From positions 1,726,806-1,790,805 of the forward strand of contig JAUICZ010000001.1 of the NCBI GenBank assembly GCA_030429205.1: a stretch of 64,000 nt of DNA. The letters run 5' to 3'. The DNA comes from Bacteroidia bacterium (GTDB lineage: Bacteria; Bacteroidota; Bacteroidia; Chitinophagales; Chitinophagaceae). Below, piece by piece: positions 43,393-49,692 of the stretch (positions are counted from its first letter, which is position 1; each line of letters starts with the position of its first letter). The notes below the pieces were generated by a model. The model had not been told where the DNA came from. It did no database searches and worked only from the letters and a program-made list of their open reading frames with translations. The position numbers and the translations under genes were made by a program.

Positions 43393-43629
43393 TTAATTTG
43401 GCACTGTGCAATAGAGTGTGCCCAGTCCGTTGGTATTGCTGAGTTTCAGCTCACGGTCGCGGCATTTGCGTTTTGCCTGCTCGTAGTTACGGGCACGTAC
43501 CGGCGTTTTAAAACTATCTACTGTGTAATAGATGGTCAGCTCTGCACAATTGCAATCGTAATAACGTTTGCGGCAAGATGCGGTAAGCAGCACGGCGATC
43601 GTCAGGATGTATAAGGTGTATTTGTGCAT
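43393..43629 (-). CDS. Small Cys-rich lipoprotein, coupled to phage repressor
   Basis: 78 residues. Lipoprotein signal with TASC (Cys about 19) followed by RKRYYDCNCAE and R-x-Y-x-x-A-x-x-x-C (RNYEQAKRKCRD), ending LYCTVPN. The same cysteine layout appears in the proteins at 58612 and 58909, so it belongs to a local lipoprotein family of unknown function. Its ATG overlaps the stop of the CI-like repressor gene (TAATG), so it is co-expressed with the repressor, as expected of a lysogenic-conversion gene (inference). Confidence 0.6.
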   Translation of the reverse strand: MHKYTLYILTIAVLLTASCRKRYYDCNCAELTIYYTVDSFKTPVRARNYEQAKRKCRDRELKLSNTNGLGTLYCTVPN

Positions 43630-44354
43630 TATACCATTATCTCAAAACGTTTTGGTGGTGGCATCTCCCAGTCTATCTTACGCTTCACCAACCATAATTC
43701 TTTTATCTCGCTTTTGGGTAGTACAAACTGCGGGTAAAACTCTTCGTTATCGCTGATGCACACAAAGCTGTCATCGTCTTTGCGGTACAGGCGTTTTACC
43801 ATAATGCGGTCTTCTGTTACTACTACATGTATATAAAATTGTGCGGTGCTGTTCCAGTATTCAGGTGCTACTGCCTCGCTCACTACATGAAAGCCTTCTT
43901 TCAAAGTCGGCTCCATGCTGTCGCCGCTCACCTCAAACACGCGATACTTTTCACCGCGGTAGGGCATGTTGGGGATGTTCATCACCTCCAGCTCGTTGGT
44001 GAATGCGGGGTCTAAATAATGTTTACTGTAGCCGGCCTGTGCCATAATAGGTACTACATGTAAGCCTTGTTCTACGTTTGTTCCCATAGTTTTTGCTGCT
44101 CTTAATTCGTCGCCTGTGGTGCGGTCATTGTCAAAATGCTCGGCAGGGTTATTATAGGCACCGCCAAACAGCTGGTCGGTAGTTATACCCAAAGCTTTGG
44201 CAGAACGCAGGCGCATGGTCTCGTCCAGTTTCTTTTTTCTGAAGTTGTAGTATAGGGTGCTGCGGGGCACATTCAAAGCTATTGCCAGGCCGTGTACCCC
44301 CATCTTGCTCATACGTGCGGCGTTTTGCAACGCTTCGCCTTCATGGATACTCAT
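43629..44354 (-). CDS. CI/LexA-type phage repressor with S24 peptidase domain
   Basis: 241 residues. The N-terminal DNA-binding domain includes MGVHGLAIALNVPRSTLYYN. The C-terminal S24 domain has cleavage site A107-G108 (MAQAGYS), nucleophile S146 (VSGDSMEP) and K187 (IMVKRLYR), so it should self-cleave on RecA activation like LexA and lambdoid CI proteins. It is transcribed divergently from phage-type early genes over a 187-base switch region, which makes it the lysogeny repressor of a (remnant) prophage. Confidence 0.88.
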   Translation of the reverse strand: MSIHEGEALQNAARMSKMGVHGLAIALNVPRSTLYYNFRKKKLDETMRLRSAKALGITTDQLFGGAYNNPAEHFDNDRTTGDELRAAKTMGTNVEQGLHVVPIMAQAGYSKHYLDPAFTNELEVMNIPNMPYRGEKYRVFEVSGDSMEPTLKEGFHVVSEAVAPEYWNSTAQFYIHVVVTEDRIMVKRLYRKDDDSFVCISDNEEFYPQFVLPKSEIKELWLVKRKIDWEMPPPKRFEIMV

Positions 44355-44392
44355 AGACTAATACATTAAGTTTAAAAATATTTCAAATTAAT

Positions 44393-44423
44393 TTTGGACG
44401 TTTGTACAGAATATGTACATTTG
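44393..44423 (+). promoter_or_regulatory. Early promoter of phage-type genes with operator
   Basis: TTTG (44393-44396), exactly 19 bases, TACATTTG (44416-44423). Overlapping it, 44403-44419 is TGTACA-N5-TGTACA, a candidate repressor site. It would drive the gene cluster starting at 44542. Confidence 0.65.
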
Positions 44424-44449
44424 TCTAACAAAGCAACCTTAATGCAACA

Positions 44450-44490
44450 TTGTTTGAACAAATGTATAAATAAATTTGGAAAACAACAAA
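44450..44490 (-). promoter_or_regulatory. Repressor promoter with operator
   Basis: On the minus strand TTTG (44487-44490), 20 bases, TACATTTG (44459-44466), the same octamer as the early promoter. TTGTT-TG-AACAA (44450-44461) overlaps it; TTTGAACA here and TTTGTACA at 44401 look like one half-site. The promoter faces the early promoter, so the first bases of both transcripts overlap. Confidence 0.55.
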
Positions 44491-44541
44491 CCTGAGTAAA
44501 AAACAAAACGCCCGGGCGAGTATCAAAAAAACTATAAAGCT

Positions 44542-44982
44542 ATGACGGTAAATATGACAACAACAGCGGCAGAGAATACCCGCCTGAACGGCGGAAACCT
44601 TTATGGAGTAGGTGTTTTAGACGAGGCAAAAAAAATGCCCACTGTAGACACAAGCGGGCGTTTCAAAACAAAAAATAAAAAACACAGCTCAAAGTTAATA
44701 AAAAATTGGCATATACAAGATTTTGCTATTACGAGTTTGTACATACAAATAACATGGCACTACCTGCCTATGAGCCAGTCGCGCAGGTTAAATATCAGCC
44801 GCCTGGTGTATGAGCGTTGGTTGAGCATGACGGGGCGTTTGAATTGTTATGTCATCGGTCAGTATGGTTTTCAGCAATCCAGAGGTAAAATGCATGTGGC
44901 CGATTACTGGGAGCATGAGTATAAAGATGTACATATGGAAGACCTGAACGAATATGTTGAACACATGAGACTGTTTGCCTGA
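44542..44982 (+). CDS. Phage-type early protein of unknown function
   Basis: 146 residues, basic N-terminal half (KTKNKKHSSKLIKNW) and a folded C-terminal half rich in Y, W and H. No domain is recognised. It is the first gene under the early promoter opposite the CI-like repressor, the place of phage excision or antirepressor-type genes, but the sequence does not show which. Confidence 0.5.
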   Translation: MTVNMTTTAAENTRLNGGNLYGVGVLDEAKKMPTVDTSGRFKTKNKKHSSKLIKNWHIQDFAITSLYIQITWHYLPMSQSRRLNISRLVYERWLSMTGRLNCYVIGQYGFQQSRGKMHVADYWEHEYKDVHMEDLNEYVEHMRLFA

Positions 44983-45018
44983 TCTACCATTTTTAATCTA
45001 ACAACAAAAACTACAGAT

Positions 45019-45453
45019 ATGATAAACAACATGTTTTACAACCACGTGAGCAGCTGGATAGCCAGCTATTACAATGCAGACTCTCTGGAGTGGATGCGCC
45101 GCTTTATTGCCAACAGCAACGAAGAGGATAAAATAAAAGAAAGGTTGCTGCGCGAGGTAGACCGTAAAATGGCATCGCTGCTGAACATGCCTTTCTTTAC
45201 CCACCACGATGGTATGCAATTGTTGATGAATGAGAACTGCCACCCCAAAGTATTCACTACCCGCTATGCCGCAATGTGCGAGGTTACACAACTGCGTGTA
45301 ATGGGTTACGATGTTCGCCTGCTGGAAGGTGGAGTGTTCTTTAGAATTCAATTAGTACGTGCCGCCCCTATAAACTTTGTTGAGCCTGCAGATAAAGTGG
45401 CTCGCGCAGAAGATGTATATGTGCAGAAACACAACATGAGGTTGAGTGCATAA
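45019..45453 (+). CDS. Phage-type early protein of unknown function
   Basis: 144 residues, mainly helical (SLEWMRRFIANSNEEDKIKE, LLREVDRKMASLLNM). Family not recognised. It follows the previous early gene by 36 bases and is followed by an A/C-rich leader before the next gene; the spacing suggests one transcript. Confidence 0.5.
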   Translation: MINNMFYNHVSSWIASYYNADSLEWMRRFIANSNEEDKIKERLLREVDRKMASLLNMPFFTHHDGMQLLMNENCHPKVFTTRYAAMCEVTQLRVMGYDVRLLEGGVFFRIQLVRAAPINFVEPADKVARAEDVYVQKHNMRLSA

Positions 45454-45524
45454 TACTTCTGAAACCTACATCACCATCAATAGAACTATAACCTATCAAC
45501 ACAATACAAACCATGTAAACACAC

Positions 45525-45540
45525 ACTGCTGCAAAGCAGT
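45525..45540 (+). promoter_or_regulatory. Hairpin with GCAA tetraloop at a start codon
   Basis: ACTGCT-GCAA-AGCAGT, a perfect 6-base stem with a GNRA loop, directly before the ATG at 45541. Either a translational control element or a sign that the real start is the ATG at 45559. Confidence 0.35.
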
Positions 45541-45828
45541 ATGCAATACAGAACGATAATGACAGGATTAATTATTGACGCCGTGCCATCGCCCAACGAA
45601 ACCTATTTTGAGGCTCTGGGCATTAGCATGGAAAGGAATGAGCAATTATGCGACATAATAGACGAATGCTATGAGCAGACTACAACCTATCCTGAAGCGA
45701 TAGCCTGTATCTCTCGTAAGGTAGACAATGTACAAGAGCTGGCTTATGCTATTTTTCACTTAGGTGCCTTTGCCGGTGAAAAACGTGCCCGGCTGGAGAT
45801 CATGAACCATATAGAAAAAGCTGCATGA
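45541..45828 (+). CDS. Small phage-type protein
   Basis: 95 residues (89 from the ATG at 45559), acidic and helical (NEQLCDIIDECYEQTTTYPE, ELAYAIFHLGAFAGEK). No family is recognised. Its stop overlaps the ATG of the RecT-like gene (ATGA), which implies translational coupling and a role in the same DNA-processing step (inference). Confidence 0.55.
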   Translation: MQYRTIMTGLIIDAVPSPNETYFEALGISMERNEQLCDIIDECYEQTTTYPEAIACISRKVDNVQELAYAIFHLGAFAGEKRARLEIMNHIEKAA

Positions 45829-46586
45829 CACAACTTATAAACACAAAACAAATTGTATTGAAAATGAAAACACAGGAATTATTACAAGAAGAACAATACT
45901 CGTTGCAACAAACGAACGACATACTATCGTCGCTGGTAATGAATGGCGACATCAGCAGGCTAACGCCCGCGCAAAAGGTAAACTACTATCAGCAGGTATG
46001 CGATAAGCTGGGGCTGGATCCGTTATCGCAACCTTTCAGGATACTAAAACTGCATGGAAAAGAGATTTTATACTGCCACCGCGGAGGTGCACAACAGCTG
46101 AACAAGTTGCACAAAGTAAGCCACGAGATAAAAGCACGAGAGGCGGTAAATGGTTGTTATGTGGTAACGGCACAAGCGTCAACTGCTGACGGTCGGAAGA
46201 CGGAAAGCATTGGCGCCGTGCCTATCCATAATCTTAAAGGAGAGCAACTGTGCAATGCCATGATGAAGGCAGAAACAAAAGCAAAACGTCGTGCTACGCT
46301 AGACTTGTTGGGTCTGGGTATTTTAGACGAAACAGAGATACCGCAAACAGGGGTGCAAATACCACTGAATAATCATACGCAGGTAAAAGAACCGGAGCAT
46401 AAGCCATACCCGTACTCATTATTTGTGAGTGACGAGAGTTTACTAAAAATGGTGCAGGAGTGTAACGATGAGGATGGGTTATTGGTATTGTATAACGATA
46501 ACAGAGAGCGTATAGAAGAGCATCCGGAGTTGAAGCAGATGTTCACAGAACGGAAGCTGCAACTACGCAACAAAACCGCAGCATAG
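45825..46586 (+). CDS. Putative phage single-strand annealing (RecT-like) protein
   Basis: 253 residues. The part LTPAQKVNYYQQVCDKLGLD and PLSQPFRILKLHGKEILYC resembles the core of Bet/RecT-type annealing proteins, and the C-terminal NAMMKAETKAKRRATLDLLG with ILDETE is typical of a phage protein family predicted to work in recombination. Assignment rests on this similarity by eye. ATG at 45825 overlaps the previous stop; M14 is an alternative. Located in the early region beside a repressor, as recombination genes often are. Confidence 0.55.
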   Translation: MTQLINTKQIVLKMKTQELLQEEQYSLQQTNDILSSLVMNGDISRLTPAQKVNYYQQVCDKLGLDPLSQPFRILKLHGKEILYCHRGGAQQLNKLHKVSHEIKAREAVNGCYVVTAQASTADGRKTESIGAVPIHNLKGEQLCNAMMKAETKAKRRATLDLLGLGILDETEIPQTGVQIPLNNHTQVKEPEHKPYPYSLFVSDESLLKMVQECNDEDGLLVLYNDNRERIEEHPELKQMFTERKLQLRNKTAA

Positions 46587-46877
46587 AATGGCAAGTATAC
46601 ACTGAACCCGCACCATGAAAAACTAATTGAAAAGTAAATAAGTATTCCCCTCCTGTTTTTAGGAGGGGTGCCCGTAGGGCGGGGTGGTATTAATACCCTT
46701 CCGTCTCTTCGTGCCACCTTCCCTAAAAGCAGGGAAGGTGTTGTAGAAGTTCTTTGAGAGATTGTTATGAGCTACAAGGATACACCCCTAACCCCTCTCA
46801 AGAGGGGAGTGTTTAGTAAGTTGTTATGAATGATGAATACACACCCTAAACCTCTTATTGAGAGAGTTTACCCTTTG
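46587..46877. repeat. Cluster of palindromic repeat units upstream of the DUF559 element
   Basis: No gene. Units: CCCCTCCTGTTTTTAGGAGG hairpin at 46647-46668 followed by GTGCCCGTAGGGCGGGGTGG to 46688; palindrome GGTATTAATACC at 46686-46697; CACCTTCCCT...AGGGAAGGTG hairpin at 46715-46740; ACACCCCTAACCCCTCTC...GTGTT unit at 46782-46812; and a degraded unit at 46841-46871. They are related to the two units that bracket the nuclease gene. Confidence 0.75.
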
Positions 46878-47341
46878 CTTCCCCTCCCTGGAGGGGAGTA
46901 AGGGGTGGGTTGTCGAGTAAAATGTATTTTTAGTGATATGCGTAAGATCATACCATATAATCCTAGGTTGAAACAATTGGCTCGTCAATTAAGGAATAAT
47001 AGTACTAAAGCAGAAATAAAGCTTTGGGGGCATTTACGTAATAAGGAAATGTTAGGTTACGACTTCGACAGACAGAAGCCTATAGACAATTATATTGTTG
47101 ATTTCTTTTGCTATGATTTGATGTTAGCCATAGAGCTGGATGGTTTTACACATCAGTTTGAAGAAGTATATCAAAAAGATGTAGTTAAAGATCAGCGTTT
47201 AAATGAGCTGGGCGTTCATGTGTTGCGTTTTGACGATAAGGATGTAGTGAATGGTATTGAAAAAGTGGTCGGGGTGATTGAACTCAAGATAGAGGAGTTA
47301 AAAGGGACACACGCCTAACCCCTCTCGAGAGGGGAAGTGTT
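46878..47341. mobile_element. Putative mobile unit: DUF559 nuclease between inverted palindromic repeats
   Basis: Left unit 46878-46910 (CTTCCCCTC...GGAGGGGAGTAAGGGGTG) and right unit 47308-47341 (CCTAACCCCTCTCGAGAGGG, GAAGTG) are reverse complements with a few changes; each holds a hairpin (CCCCTCC-CT-GGAGGGG; CCCCTCTCGAGAGGGG). The nuclease gene fills the space between. Its stop TAA lies inside the right unit. No target-site duplication was identified. Confidence 0.5.
46938..47318 (+). CDS. DUF559 (Vsr-like) endonuclease-domain protein
   Basis: 126 residues from the ATG at 46938 (an earlier in-frame start would lie in repeat-derived sequence). The fold is the Vsr/PD-(D/E)xK-like DUF559 domain: NSTKAEIKLWGHLRNKEMLG, D55 (YIVDFFC), E66 and D68 (AIELDG), H72, then LGVHVLRFDDKDV. 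Such proteins are common in Bacteroidota but have no agreed function. It stands alone between inverted palindromic repeats, the right one supplying its stop codon, a layout that recalls REP-associated enzymes. Confidence 0.8.
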   Translation: MRKIIPYNPRLKQLARQLRNNSTKAEIKLWGHLRNKEMLGYDFDRQKPIDNYIVDFFCYDLMLAIELDGFTHQFEEVYQKDVVKDQRLNELGVHVLRFDDKDVVNGIEKVVGVIELKIEELKGTHA

Positions 47342-47354
47342 GGTAATACTCGGT

Positions 47355-47762
47355 CTAAGCAAACCAATCAGCCATACCTAAAAGTATCAGTCCGCTCATA
47401 AAGTAAAAGATGGCCGACATGGTATTGAGCAGAAATACACCCATATACAGTTTGTTGGTACGGCGGTAGAGCATACTCACAGCCATGCCAAAGCAGGCGA
47501 GTATACCATGCAGTAATGTAAAGTTGATAGCCTCTACCGGATGTTCTTGTGTGCTGCCTATGGGAAAATGATGACCTGATGATATCAATATCAGCAACTG
47601 TACGGGTGTGTAAAACATCATAAAAAAGTATACCACCCTTAGCCATGTATTAGGTGCGGGTTGCTTACCAATGGGTAACAACTTATTGATGAGTGTATGC
47701 AATACACCTGTGAGTATGGTAGCAAAAACTATAATAATGATGAGTGGAAATAACTCGCCCAT
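47355..47762 (-). CDS. Small membrane protein, four segments
   Basis: 135 residues from the ATG at 47762; a TTG six codons earlier is less likely. Four hydrophobic segments (FPLIIIIVFATILTGVL, WLRVVYFFMMFYTPVQLLIL, FTLLHGILACFGMAVSMLY, LNTMSAIFYFMSGLILLG). Family not recognised. Not phage-like; lies just downstream of the DUF559 unit on the opposite strand. Confidence 0.6.
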   Translation of the reverse strand: MGELFPLIIIIVFATILTGVLHTLINKLLPIGKQPAPNTWLRVVYFFMMFYTPVQLLILISSGHHFPIGSTQEHPVEAINFTLLHGILACFGMAVSMLYRRTNKLYMGVFLLNTMSAIFYFMSGLILLGMADWFA

Positions 47763-47812
47763 AGCAAAACTTTGTGCCAAAGTACGGTTTTATGGTTGTG
47801 TATACTTATATA

Positions 47813-48169
47813 CTAGTCTAATGACAGTAAGAAAAGTGCTATAAATATAAAGCAGAGAAGTGTATTTACTGCTTGTAATATTACATAGAGTCTTTTCTTT
47901 TCGACAAGTAATGTAGCTGCAACAGAGCCACCTATTATTACTAACATGATTATAATGCCGATTAGCCAGTTTAACCAATTGTAGATTGTAATTTCTTTTG
48001 ATAAGAAGGATGATAGTACTATCAATGGCAACGGCGTAAAGGCTAATAATGAAAGAGCTTTTCTGTTGTTTTCAACATCTATTTTCTTATTTGCATACAT
48101 GCCAACCATTATTAACAATGCGATTGTTGTAATTGCAGCTAGAATGCCGCCTATTAGTGTTGAGGACAT
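47813..48169 (-). CDS. Small membrane protein, four segments
   Basis: 118 residues, hydrophobic, four segments (LIGGILAAITTIALLIMVGMY; LSLLAFTPLPLIVLSSFL; WLIGIIIMLVIIGGSVAATLL; VNTLLCFIFIALFLLSL, each trimmed). No family recognised. Same strand as its neighbours at 47355 and 48188, perhaps one transcript. Confidence 0.6.
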   Translation of the reverse strand: MSSTLIGGILAAITTIALLIMVGMYANKKIDVENNRKALSLLAFTPLPLIVLSSFLSKEITIYNWLNWLIGIIIMLVIIGGSVAATLLVEKKRLYVILQAVNTLLCFIFIALFLLSLD

Positions 48170-48187
48170 TTTGAGGTAGTTTAATTT

Positions 48188-48610
48188 CTACCCAAGATAA
48201 AAATGTAACCCGATAAATGCACAGGCATAAATGCAACCTGCGGCAATATCCGTAAAGTAATAAAAGCTATTGCGTGTGTTGCGCTTGCGTAAGTATCGCG
48301 CGCTTACAATACCGGCTACGGTAATAAATACATGCCCTGCACAAAACCACAACAACAGGCGCAAGCCTGGCAGGTTGCCTACAGCCCAATGGGGTACAAC
48401 AAGTGCCAGTATGATGAGTAGTAGTAAAGATACAGGCGGATAGCCGGCAAGGGTATAAAGGGTTTTGCGCTCCCACTCGGGCAGTGTTGCATTTCCACGC
48501 AAACGACTGTAGGGCGAGAGCTGATAACAGATGGAGGTAAGGCTGACAATAAACACTAATGACAACACTACATATAAAACAACACCAATAGCCATACCCA
48601 TCATGCTCAT
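48188..48610 (-). CDS. Small membrane protein
   Basis: 140 residues from the ATG at 48610; the longer in-frame start adds a Cys/Lys-rich stretch with no sense as a membrane protein start. About four hydrophobic segments (GVVLYVVLSLVFIVSL; PVSLLLLIILALVV; LLLWFCAGHVFITVAGIV; IAAGCIYACAFIGLHF). Function unknown. Divergent from the DUF4373 gene. Confidence 0.6.
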   Translation of the reverse strand: MSMMGMAIGVVLYVVLSLVFIVSLTSICYQLSPYSRLRGNATLPEWERKTLYTLAGYPPVSLLLLIILALVVPHWAVGNLPGLRLLLWFCAGHVFITVAGIVSARYLRKRNTRNSFYYFTDIAAGCIYACAFIGLHFYLG

Positions 48611-48744
48611 AACAAAACCTCTTTTAATAACTGTAAAACAAAAGCAATGCCAAACTGTTTTCGGCTTGTTTTTTGATGTAATTTTTAATGTATAATGACA
48701 ATTATTTGACATAAATATTATCACCAGTTAAAAACATATTAACC

Positions 48745-49692
48745 ATGAGTAAAAAAGAAAGTTATTGGTTCAGTCACGATAGTAATGCAGCAAGCAACCC
48801 CAAGTTGGTGGCGCTTATCAGCAAGTACGGGTTTGAAGGGTATGGACGTTGGTGGCGGCTGCTGGAAAGGCTGCGCGACTGCGATGAATATAAGTATAAC
48901 ATAGGCACTGCATTTGCTTACGATGTGTTGGCAAAAGATCTGTTGATGACCACAGAAGAGGCGATAGCCTTTGTGCAGGATTGTGTAGAATACTTTCAGT
49001 TGTTGCAATGCGACGATGAATATATCTGGTCGGATAGTTTGATAGCCCGTATGGACTATTGGGAGAAGCGCAGAGAAGTATTACGCGAGCGTGGCAGAAA
49101 AGGAGCTGCTGTTACAAATGCTAAAAAGAAAAAACAAAAAGAAGAACGCTTAAGCGACGACGCAAGCGACGCTAAGCCTCAGCATAAAACGGCAAACGAA
49201 ACGAAACAAAACCAAACGAAACAAAACGAAACAACGTCTGATATAGTAGACGACGAAGAAGATTTTAAGGGAGGTATAGAAATGAGTAGAGAACAAAACA
49301 GTTTTGATGTGTTACGTAAACAGGCTCTCGCCGACGGACAACGCTTTGTGTATCCTTTTGTAAGCTCCGGCAGGGTAAATAAAGAACAACTGGCTAAGTG
49401 GCTCACTGCTTTTAATAAGTGGTTGGATTTTACAGGAGAGGCTGTGAAAACAGAGCGCGACTATCGCAGGCATTTTGCTGCATGGTTCAGGTATAGAGAC
49501 TTGAGTAAAGAAACCCCCGAGACCTACAATCCCGCCACGCCAAACGTGCAGGAAGCCCCCGCCTCCAGTACCGTTCCGCTACCGGTCATCATCCCGAAAG
49601 ATATGCCTAAAACCAAGTTTAAAAAAGGTGAGAACAGCTACGATATGCACTGGCTGAAAGGCTTGAAAGACGAGATCACCAAAATGGGGTAG
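48745..49692 (+). CDS. Phage-type replication protein with DUF4373 (Lin1244/Lin1753) N-terminus
   Basis: 315 residues. Residues 1-120 match the DUF4373/Lin1244-type N-terminal domain found in phage replication-initiation proteins (YWFSHDSNAASNPKLVALIS, YGFEGYGRWWRLLE). A K/N/T-rich linker (about 125-175) precedes a C-terminal region (LAKWLTAFNKWLDF, RDYRRHFAAWFRYRD) of the DnaD/helicase-loader accessory kind. It probably helps load replication proteins for the phage. It stands apart from the other phage genes. Confidence 0.75.
   Translation: MSKKESYWFSHDSNAASNPKLVALISKYGFEGYGRWWRLLERLRDCDEYKYNIGTAFAYDVLAKDLLMTTEEAIAFVQDCVEYFQLLQCDDEYIWSDSLIARMDYWEKRREVLRERGRKGAAVTNAKKKKQKEERLSDDASDAKPQHKTANETKQNQTKQNETTSDIVDDEEDFKGGIEMSREQNSFDVLRKQALADGQRFVYPFVSSGRVNKEQLAKWLTAFNKWLDFTGEAVKTERDYRRHFAAWFRYRDLSKETPETYNPATPNVQEAPASSTVPLPVIIPKDMPKTKFKKGENSYDMHWLKGLKDEITKMG

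Follow-up and report, generated by a model that had tools for sequence, protein, structure and literature searches.

A DUF559 nuclease gene among triplex-type repeat units, a probable copy of a widespread two-part mobile system

A gene for a DUF559 nuclease was found between inverted repeat units of a three-arm, triplex-type design in the window, that is, the whole stretch of 64,000 nucleotides of DNA that was analyzed. We consider it probable that this locus is one copy of a widespread two-part mobile system made up of a DUF559 nuclease and triplex-type units, in which the nuclease would cut folded strands and pairs of units without a gene would move in trans. The enzyme of this system is most probably DUF559 itself. 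Among relatives of the window gene, units accompany the nuclease and follow a third-arm code, two layouts recur, inverted pairs with sharp ends are dispersed, sites occur both filled and empty, and insertions lie in frame within genes whose host domains remain intact.

The open reading frame in the window matches DUF559 (PF04480) with 105.7 bits against a cut-off of 20.6 in a profile search, and starts either at ATG 46938 or at GTG 46905. The gene, the four units around it and two more distant genes are listed below.

43629–44354: S24/CI-like repressor, prophage-like surroundings
46647–46687, plus strand: farther upstream unit, hairpin CCCCTCCTG..TAGGAGGGG, third arm GGGGTGG (arm match by eye)
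46782–46807, minus strand: upstream unit, closely resembling the right unit (81% identity over 42 nt), third arm 7/7
46881–46908, plus strand: left unit, hairpin CCCCTCC/GGAGGGG, spacer AGTAA, third arm GGGGTGG facing the gene, mirror code 7/7
46881–46896: left hairpin, CCCCTCC-CT-GGAGGGG
46938–47318, plus strand: DUF559 (Vsr-like PD-(D/E)XK) nuclease gene, 126 aa from ATG, assigned by reading frame and family profile
47309–47334, minus strand: right unit, third arm ACACGCC (6/7, by eye) facing the gene, spacer TAA (the stop codon), hairpin CCCCTCTC/GAGAGGGG
47319–47334: right hairpin, CCCCTCTC-GAGAGGGG
48745–49692: Lin1244/replication-initiation-like protein, prophage-like surroundings

The gene lies between inverted palindromic units, as an initial annotation of this DNA had described. 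The left and right hairpins are inverted relative to each other and 84% complementary across 19 nt, and the two bracketing units belong to different types, the left one with GGAGGGG as its purine arm and the right one with AGAGGGG. The stop codon (TAA, 47316–47318) falls within ACACGCC-TAA-CCCCTCTC, where it separates the right unit's third arm from its hairpin. The fusion of gene and repeat that had been proposed from this arrangement stands for the window but is not general: of 48 loci with a recognized downstream unit, 10 have the DUF559 stop inside that unit or no more than 5 nt ahead of it. Upstream of the gene, the units at 46782 and 46881 form an inverted pair with outward third arms, and the spacer of the unit at 46647–46687 contains a second small hairpin (TGCCCGTAGGGC). 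Folding energies relative to shuffled sequences give z values of -0.13 for the left unit, -2.2 for the right unit and -3.7 for the unit at 46647–46687; the window hairpins on their own are not unusual. Folding energy alone is weak evidence for the window units, and it is the relatives that raise the pattern above chance.

The window genome (3.64 Mb) has a single DUF559 gene. The right-type unit occurs in it at three places with 0–1 mismatch, two of them in the window locus, and at three further places with 3 mismatches. The only near-exact copy outside the window locus (C4:2100050 in genome G000; L005:1494-1566) is part of a minimal gene-less inverted pair, in frame inside a 330-aa open reading frame with a PG0870-related N-terminus (NCBIfam). 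No precise empty site was obtained for the window locus in three other genomes of the genus, in which the upstream gene has no full orthologue. The region from 43629 to 49692 appears prophage-like, with the DUF559 cassette inside it.

In each unit, a pyrimidine arm, a loop and a purine arm are followed by a short spacer, often TTA, and by a third arm, usually on one side only. The third arm mirrors the purine arm, G being answered by G and A by T or A, as in the purine arm/third arm combinations AGAGGGG/GGGGTGT, GGAGGGG/GGGGTGG, AGGAGGG/GGGAGGT, GGGAGGG/GGGAGGG and AAGGGGG/GGGGGAT. This is the code of an antiparallel purine-motif triplex, as known from established chemistry. Among hairpins near DUF559 whose arms reach at least 7, 121 of 167 are accompanied by a third arm that fits throughout (7/7), one-sided in 120 of the 121; when arms were permuted among hairpins in 1000 trials, the count averaged 43 and never exceeded 60. 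The other 46 hairpins, with no full third arm by the 7/7 test, are counted against the reading as a two-part mobile system. The initial description of a palindromic unit therefore holds for the hairpins, which are present, but not for a plain hairpin, as the third arm makes the unit a three-arm triplex-type motif.

Units near DUF559 combine three arms with the G.G-C and A/T.A-T correspondence that defines the intrastrand triplex motif, and, judged by sequence, the unit is the published G/C-rich bacterial motif of this kind (TM/PIT). Holder et al. (2015, PMC4666352) reported the motif in more than 260 genomes, with TTA or CCG as second loops and in inverted pairs, and the E. coli motif forms a triplex in vitro by CD and NMR. 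The same authors observed no triplex in vivo by DMS footprinting and stated that genetic-mobility activities were never found around the motif; their text contains no mention of DUF or endonuclease. The repeat is already known, and in the portions of the freely accessible journal literature covered, we found neither a report of DUF559 as its partner nor, in papers naming DUF559, a link to palindromic or triplex repeats.

To assess the association, we compared the best 80 named loci carrying relatives of the window protein among the matches listed. Flanks were usable in 75 of these, five loci being dropped because one flank was shorter than 150 nt. The upstream flank aligned with the reverse-complemented downstream flank of the same locus better than all 506 shifted controls in 53 of 75 loci, and above their 99th percentile in 59. 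A strict three-arm finder applied to 70 loci recognized units on both sides in 28, on one side in 31 and on neither in 11, compared with 0 on both sides and 17 on one side among 1035 shifted windows. At least one flank thus has a unit in 59 of 70 DUF559 loci, and the 11 without a recognized unit are counted against the two-part reading. In 832 kb of sequence, 167 of 228 units lie within 350 nt of a DUF559 gene, a density 25 times that elsewhere. These counts leave aside the loci of 16 genomes reached via named loci and the flanks of 20 loci, several of them one-sided by eye. The bracketing of DUF559 genes by units beyond chance, which the initial annotation had proposed to score, is borne out, and neither outcome it had named as refuting (homologues without repeats, or repeats evenly spread with no link to DUF559) was found. 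By record titles, unit-bearing loci belong to Bacteroidota, Nitrospirota, Nitrospinota, Pseudomonadota, Bacillota, Planctomycetota, Thermotogota, Neomarinimicrobiota and Cyanobacteria, and also to Deinococcota; single phylum assignments may be wrong because many of the loci are metagenome bins.

The AlphaFold2 model of the window protein (pLDDT 89) and profile comparison place it closest to PDB 3hrl (NGO0050 of Neisseria gonorrhoeae; profile 1e-28, Foldseek 5e-8). The nearest solved relative outside DUF559 is the homing endonuclease I-Bth0305I (PDB 3r3p; profile 6e-6, Foldseek 3e-4), and Vsr (1vsr) comes at Foldseek rank 9 with E 0.06; a profile of YcjD, the E. coli DUF559 protein, finds Vsr as well (PMC1189080). 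Residues R19, E26, W30, Q46, D55, E66, D68 and H72 are invariant in 59 sequences, and the active-site pattern is retained in 149 of 153 DUF559 domains. The window protein has both the family profile and the active-site residues of a DUF559/Vsr-like nuclease. A role in defence was considered for it and rejected, no PADLOC family matching at E 0.01.

Downstream of a gonococcal DUF559 gene, triplex-type units begin after 189 nt. In E. coli, 3365 of 5426 genomes have ycjD, the DUF559 gene of the species; TMECO no. 9 of Holder et al. (1351204-1351239, MG1655) lies 167 nt from ycjD, a proximity with a chance of about 0.003 for any of 18 sites, and the ycjD stop codon falls within a degenerate unit (by eye), like that of the window gene. 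The sapF–fabI interval of E. coli (L308, L381) is the region of ycjD presence and absence. As an empty-site test it was rejected: two strains without ycjD hold a different (efflux) operon after sapF, an arrangement also described in PMC12817139, so that the interval is not a clean empty site. Units were absent from 79 of 80 viral loci with DUF559 relatives; in the remaining contig (L196:2145-3507) they flank the DUF559 relative. On a Synechocystis plasmid (L307:1890-2336), a DUF559 gene has a triplex-type unit on its upstream side and, by eye, a unit-like palindrome on its downstream side; this gene precedes one annotated as BREX pglX, and the adjacent reading frames resemble pieces of one gene (by eye). 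Two other cyanobacterial plasmid genes (L302, L303) are flanked by another type of palindrome (for example CCCCCAGAATTGGGGGATTTAGGGGGC), whose G-rich third stretch falls outside the strict finder's count.

When 153 distinct DUF559 domains were scored for the direction of the nearest third arms, two layouts emerged. In stand-alone genes with an FDRQ motif (n=60), both third arms face the gene in 20 and point away in 3, while in 37 no unit is recognized on at least one side or the arrangement is mixed. In domains with a KFRRQ motif inside frames of at least 300 aa (n=50), both third arms point away in 27 and face the gene in 2, with 21 incomplete. The KFRRQ layout is a complete element, with ends as in the gene-less pairs and the nuclease inside. 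The window gene belongs to the FDRQ clade, with inward-facing units and the gene between neighboring repeats, and in genome G134 a gene of this clade sits within a row of gene-less pairs. The minimal element suggested by the initial annotation has a clear autonomous counterpart in another DUF559 clade, outward-bounded and in frame, but in the window clade the two brackets do not clearly mark where a single element ends. The opposite preferred polarity of the two clades is counted against the two-part reading.

In-frame elements of the KFRRQ clade, consisting of the nuclease and outward units, were found in leuS, metH, ileS, recG, recJ and other genes. Open frames of at least 300 aa hold 67 of the 150 DUF559 matches listed for 246 genomes of the class, and 40 loci were selected for long open frames. 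Eight host proteins with DUF559 inside still exceed the NCBIfam curated full-length cut-offs: two LeuS (927 and 879 against 548), MetH (2071 against 1497), IleS (932 against 621), RecJ (538 against 397), RecG (888 against 711), AcsA (947 against 725) and IcmF (1804 against 1500). UvrD-like and SpoIIE-like hosts were identified by Pfam, and the aroC (L009), hemE (L027) and M23 peptidase (L015) hosts were named from reading translations. Within the inserts of nine Pfam-scanned host proteins, no domain besides DUF559 was detected; a search of these nine, at the level of protein domains only, returned no intein at E 1e-5, and inteins containing DUF559 are in print (PMC9403480). A published fusion of DUF559 to a SPOUT methyltransferase in Alphaproteobacteria (PMC1829167) fits in-frame fusion of this kind. 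In-frame insertion would explain odd peptides in translated bacterial genes, such as NPSPKERG or LPLGEDLGG.

One metH loop could be followed through 30 loci of 35 matching genomes of a single genus: nine have the nuclease, one has lost the core and kept both ends, five (L169, L172, L181, L184 and L185, by eye) have a short repeat-like remnant, and 15 are empty. The metH loop of L172 contains an in-frame short repeat of the CACCCTGAGCGGAGTCGAAGG type, possibly a different repeat (by eye). Filled and empty sites are found for the window clade, too. At the intergenic site near the G134 gene, five of 29 other loci of the genus align on both sides; the site is filled in G134 and G409 and empty in G328 (118 nt), G393 (55 nt) and G341 (94 nt), against 1178 nt in G134. 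Genome G355 has an unrelated gene at the site corresponding to the G134 insertion. The comparison of filled and empty orthologous sites that the initial annotation had called for is available at both the metH loop and the G134 site.

Gene-less pairs were collected from the pattern-match list as 20 copies in four genomes, 19 of them 92–153 nt long and one 319 nt. Their ends fall sharply at the third arms, and their flanks look unrelated by eye in all 20. No consistent target-site duplication was seen by eye in these copies, which is counted against the two-part reading. Dispersed gene-less inverted pairs, as they define REPINs, are thus present, one of them in the window genome itself, and the likeness to REP-associated tyrosine transposases (RAYTs) that had first been remarked on is real at the level of architecture, with a nuclease gene among palindromes, and dispersed inverted pairs that lack the gene.

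The main rival is homing, which we regard as unlikely. DUF559 would cut the uninserted allele as double-stranded DNA, the element would be copied by recombination using the shared flanks, and the units would only make the insertion tolerable. The nearest fold outside the family, I-Bth0305I, is a homing endonuclease, DUF559 has been named an EDxHD homing endonuclease in Thermosynechococcus inteins (PMC9403480), and the same leuS and metH loops are filled in many genomes, as homing would have it. In a tree of 50 in-frame nucleases, however, host site changes eight times among the three commonest sites (30 rows), with sister nucleases in different genes and distant ones in one loop, which argues that loops were entered more than once; the tree was made by a quick method with 24 of 47 forks weak, five labels assigned by hand and no shuffled-label control, and vertical descent of the nucleases within genera is also visible. 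Homing likewise leaves the third-arm code unexplained and does not account for gene-less pairs at unrelated sites. If the mechanism were homing after all, the system would instead be classed as a novel form of homing element.

A second rival, in our judgment quite improbable, is that other machinery spreads the units and DUF559 is a repair nuclease, VSP-like, that is a frequent passenger. A mismatch-repair role has been proposed for VsrA, the Caulobacter DUF559 protein (PMC12907096), and in Legionella three copies of a segment that holds a transposase together with DUF559 are recombination hotspots (PMC12308824). In a survey of 246 genomes of the class, one unit pattern was matched once or more in 54 genomes; DUF559 was detected in 40 of these, compared with 76 of the 192 others. 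Where it was matched twice or more the figures are 24 of 26 and 92 of 220 (Fisher 4e-7, kinship uncorrected), which favors the two-part reading. The 14 genomes with matches and no detected DUF559 speak for a passenger and against strict dependence, unless the enzyme was lost; one of the genomes without detected DUF559, G054, has five matches and may be a relic or have another driver. A reversed control pattern gave 1 or 2 matches in 15 of the 246 genomes, so that single matches are partly chance, and genomes without a match say little because the pattern covers window-type units only.

Shared DNA around the gene argues against a passenger role. Among the best 80 loci, 278 pairs share DNA similarity over the gene. 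No flank aligns in 265 of them, and in 259 of these the similarity also ends no more than 150 nt from the gene, which indicates that no second gene travels along there; remaining similar pairs, such as L108/L117, are shared sites. Between L067 (a Thermodesulfovibrionia bin) and L075 (Planctomycetota), identity is 79% across the gene and its downstream unit, and the flanks show no similarity. That each of the two clades has its own preferred unit polarity, and that the scanned inserts hold no further domain, also stand against hitch-hiking. Should the enzymatic role of DUF559 fail, a strong unexplained association remains.

It is scarcely credible that the units are terminators or regulatory palindromes of the usual kind at the ends of genes, beside DUF559 by chance: the left window hairpin is no stabler than its shuffles, but the shifted-window controls, with not one window bracketed on both sides, rule out terminators and chance hairpins, the third-arm code exceeds permutation, and units lie within open frames of enzymes.

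Under the favored two-part mobile system, the following course may be envisaged. A unit present as single-stranded DNA would fold into an intrastrand triplex; the nuclease would recognize folded units on single-stranded DNA, as at the replication fork, and cut at the third-arm side. The segment between two inverted units would be released or copied, host repair would then join it to DNA elsewhere, and gene-less pairs would move in trans. We infer each of these activities of the enzyme, namely cutting of units and action on folded single strands, as well as the joining step. In the KFRRQ clade, the gene lies inside an outward pair, and the whole element is in frame within host genes; in the FDRQ clade, it resides between inward units, often near gene-less pairs, as a RAYT does among REPINs.

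We lean towards the view that these loci represent a type of transposable element not described before. One Vsr-like nuclease would move DNA whose ends fold as triplexes, and the elements would span about ten bacterial phyla, sit in frame in essential enzymes without destroying them, and be the source of the intrastrand triplex repeats that abound in many bacterial genomes, including E. coli K-12 (with YcjD as partner). We know of no element class that combines this nuclease fold with triplex-type ends. The role of the common DUF559 family is not agreed on, and the abundant bacterial intrastrand triplex repeats are of obscure origin; a link between the two gives both a testable function. If the proposal is true, mobile elements include a further kind that differs both in the fold of its enzyme and in the nature of its ends, and mobile DNA can live in leuS or metH as a tolerated extra domain. 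E. coli K-12, having both ycjD and the published triplex motifs, would allow the link to be tested directly.

Among known systems, REP/REPIN sequences with RAYTs (TnpA-REP) follow a single-strand hairpin logic, with the gene of an HUH Y1 transposase among palindromes and dispersed inverted pairs of about 100 nt. The DUF559 loci work like these in having a nuclease gene among palindromes and dispersed inverted pairs. They differ in the enzyme, a Vsr-like PD-(D/E)XK protein (PF04480; nearest folds 3hrl and 3r3p) rather than an HUH Y1 transposase, and in the repeat, where the units read have a TTA/CTA-type spacer and a G-rich third arm in place of a GTAG-type tetranucleotide at the hairpin foot; in addition, in one DUF559 clade the pair encloses the gene and the element sits in frame within host genes. 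Rickettsia palindromic elements are likewise palindromes in frame within protein genes, although to our knowledge they have no associated nuclease and no triplex arm. The mismatch endonuclease Vsr and Caulobacter VsrA (PMC12907096) belong to the same superfamily, whereas the DUF559 genes described here are repeat-bounded and dispersed. EDxHD/Vsr-like homing endonucleases, comprising I-Bth0305I and the DUF559-containing Thermosynechococcus intein assigned to that family (PMC9403480), share the nearest solved fold outside DUF559 and the habit of a nuclease traveling with the DNA it cuts, but the present elements are bounded by triplex-type units and occupy many host genes. Finally, the triplex motifs of Holder et al. 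(TM/TMECO, PIT; 2015, PMC4666352) have the same three arms, purine-type code, TTA second loop and inverted pairs; those authors describe no mobility gene beside the motifs and, in E. coli MG1655, intergenic copies only, whereas here they come with a nuclease partner, an autonomous element and in-frame copies inside genes.
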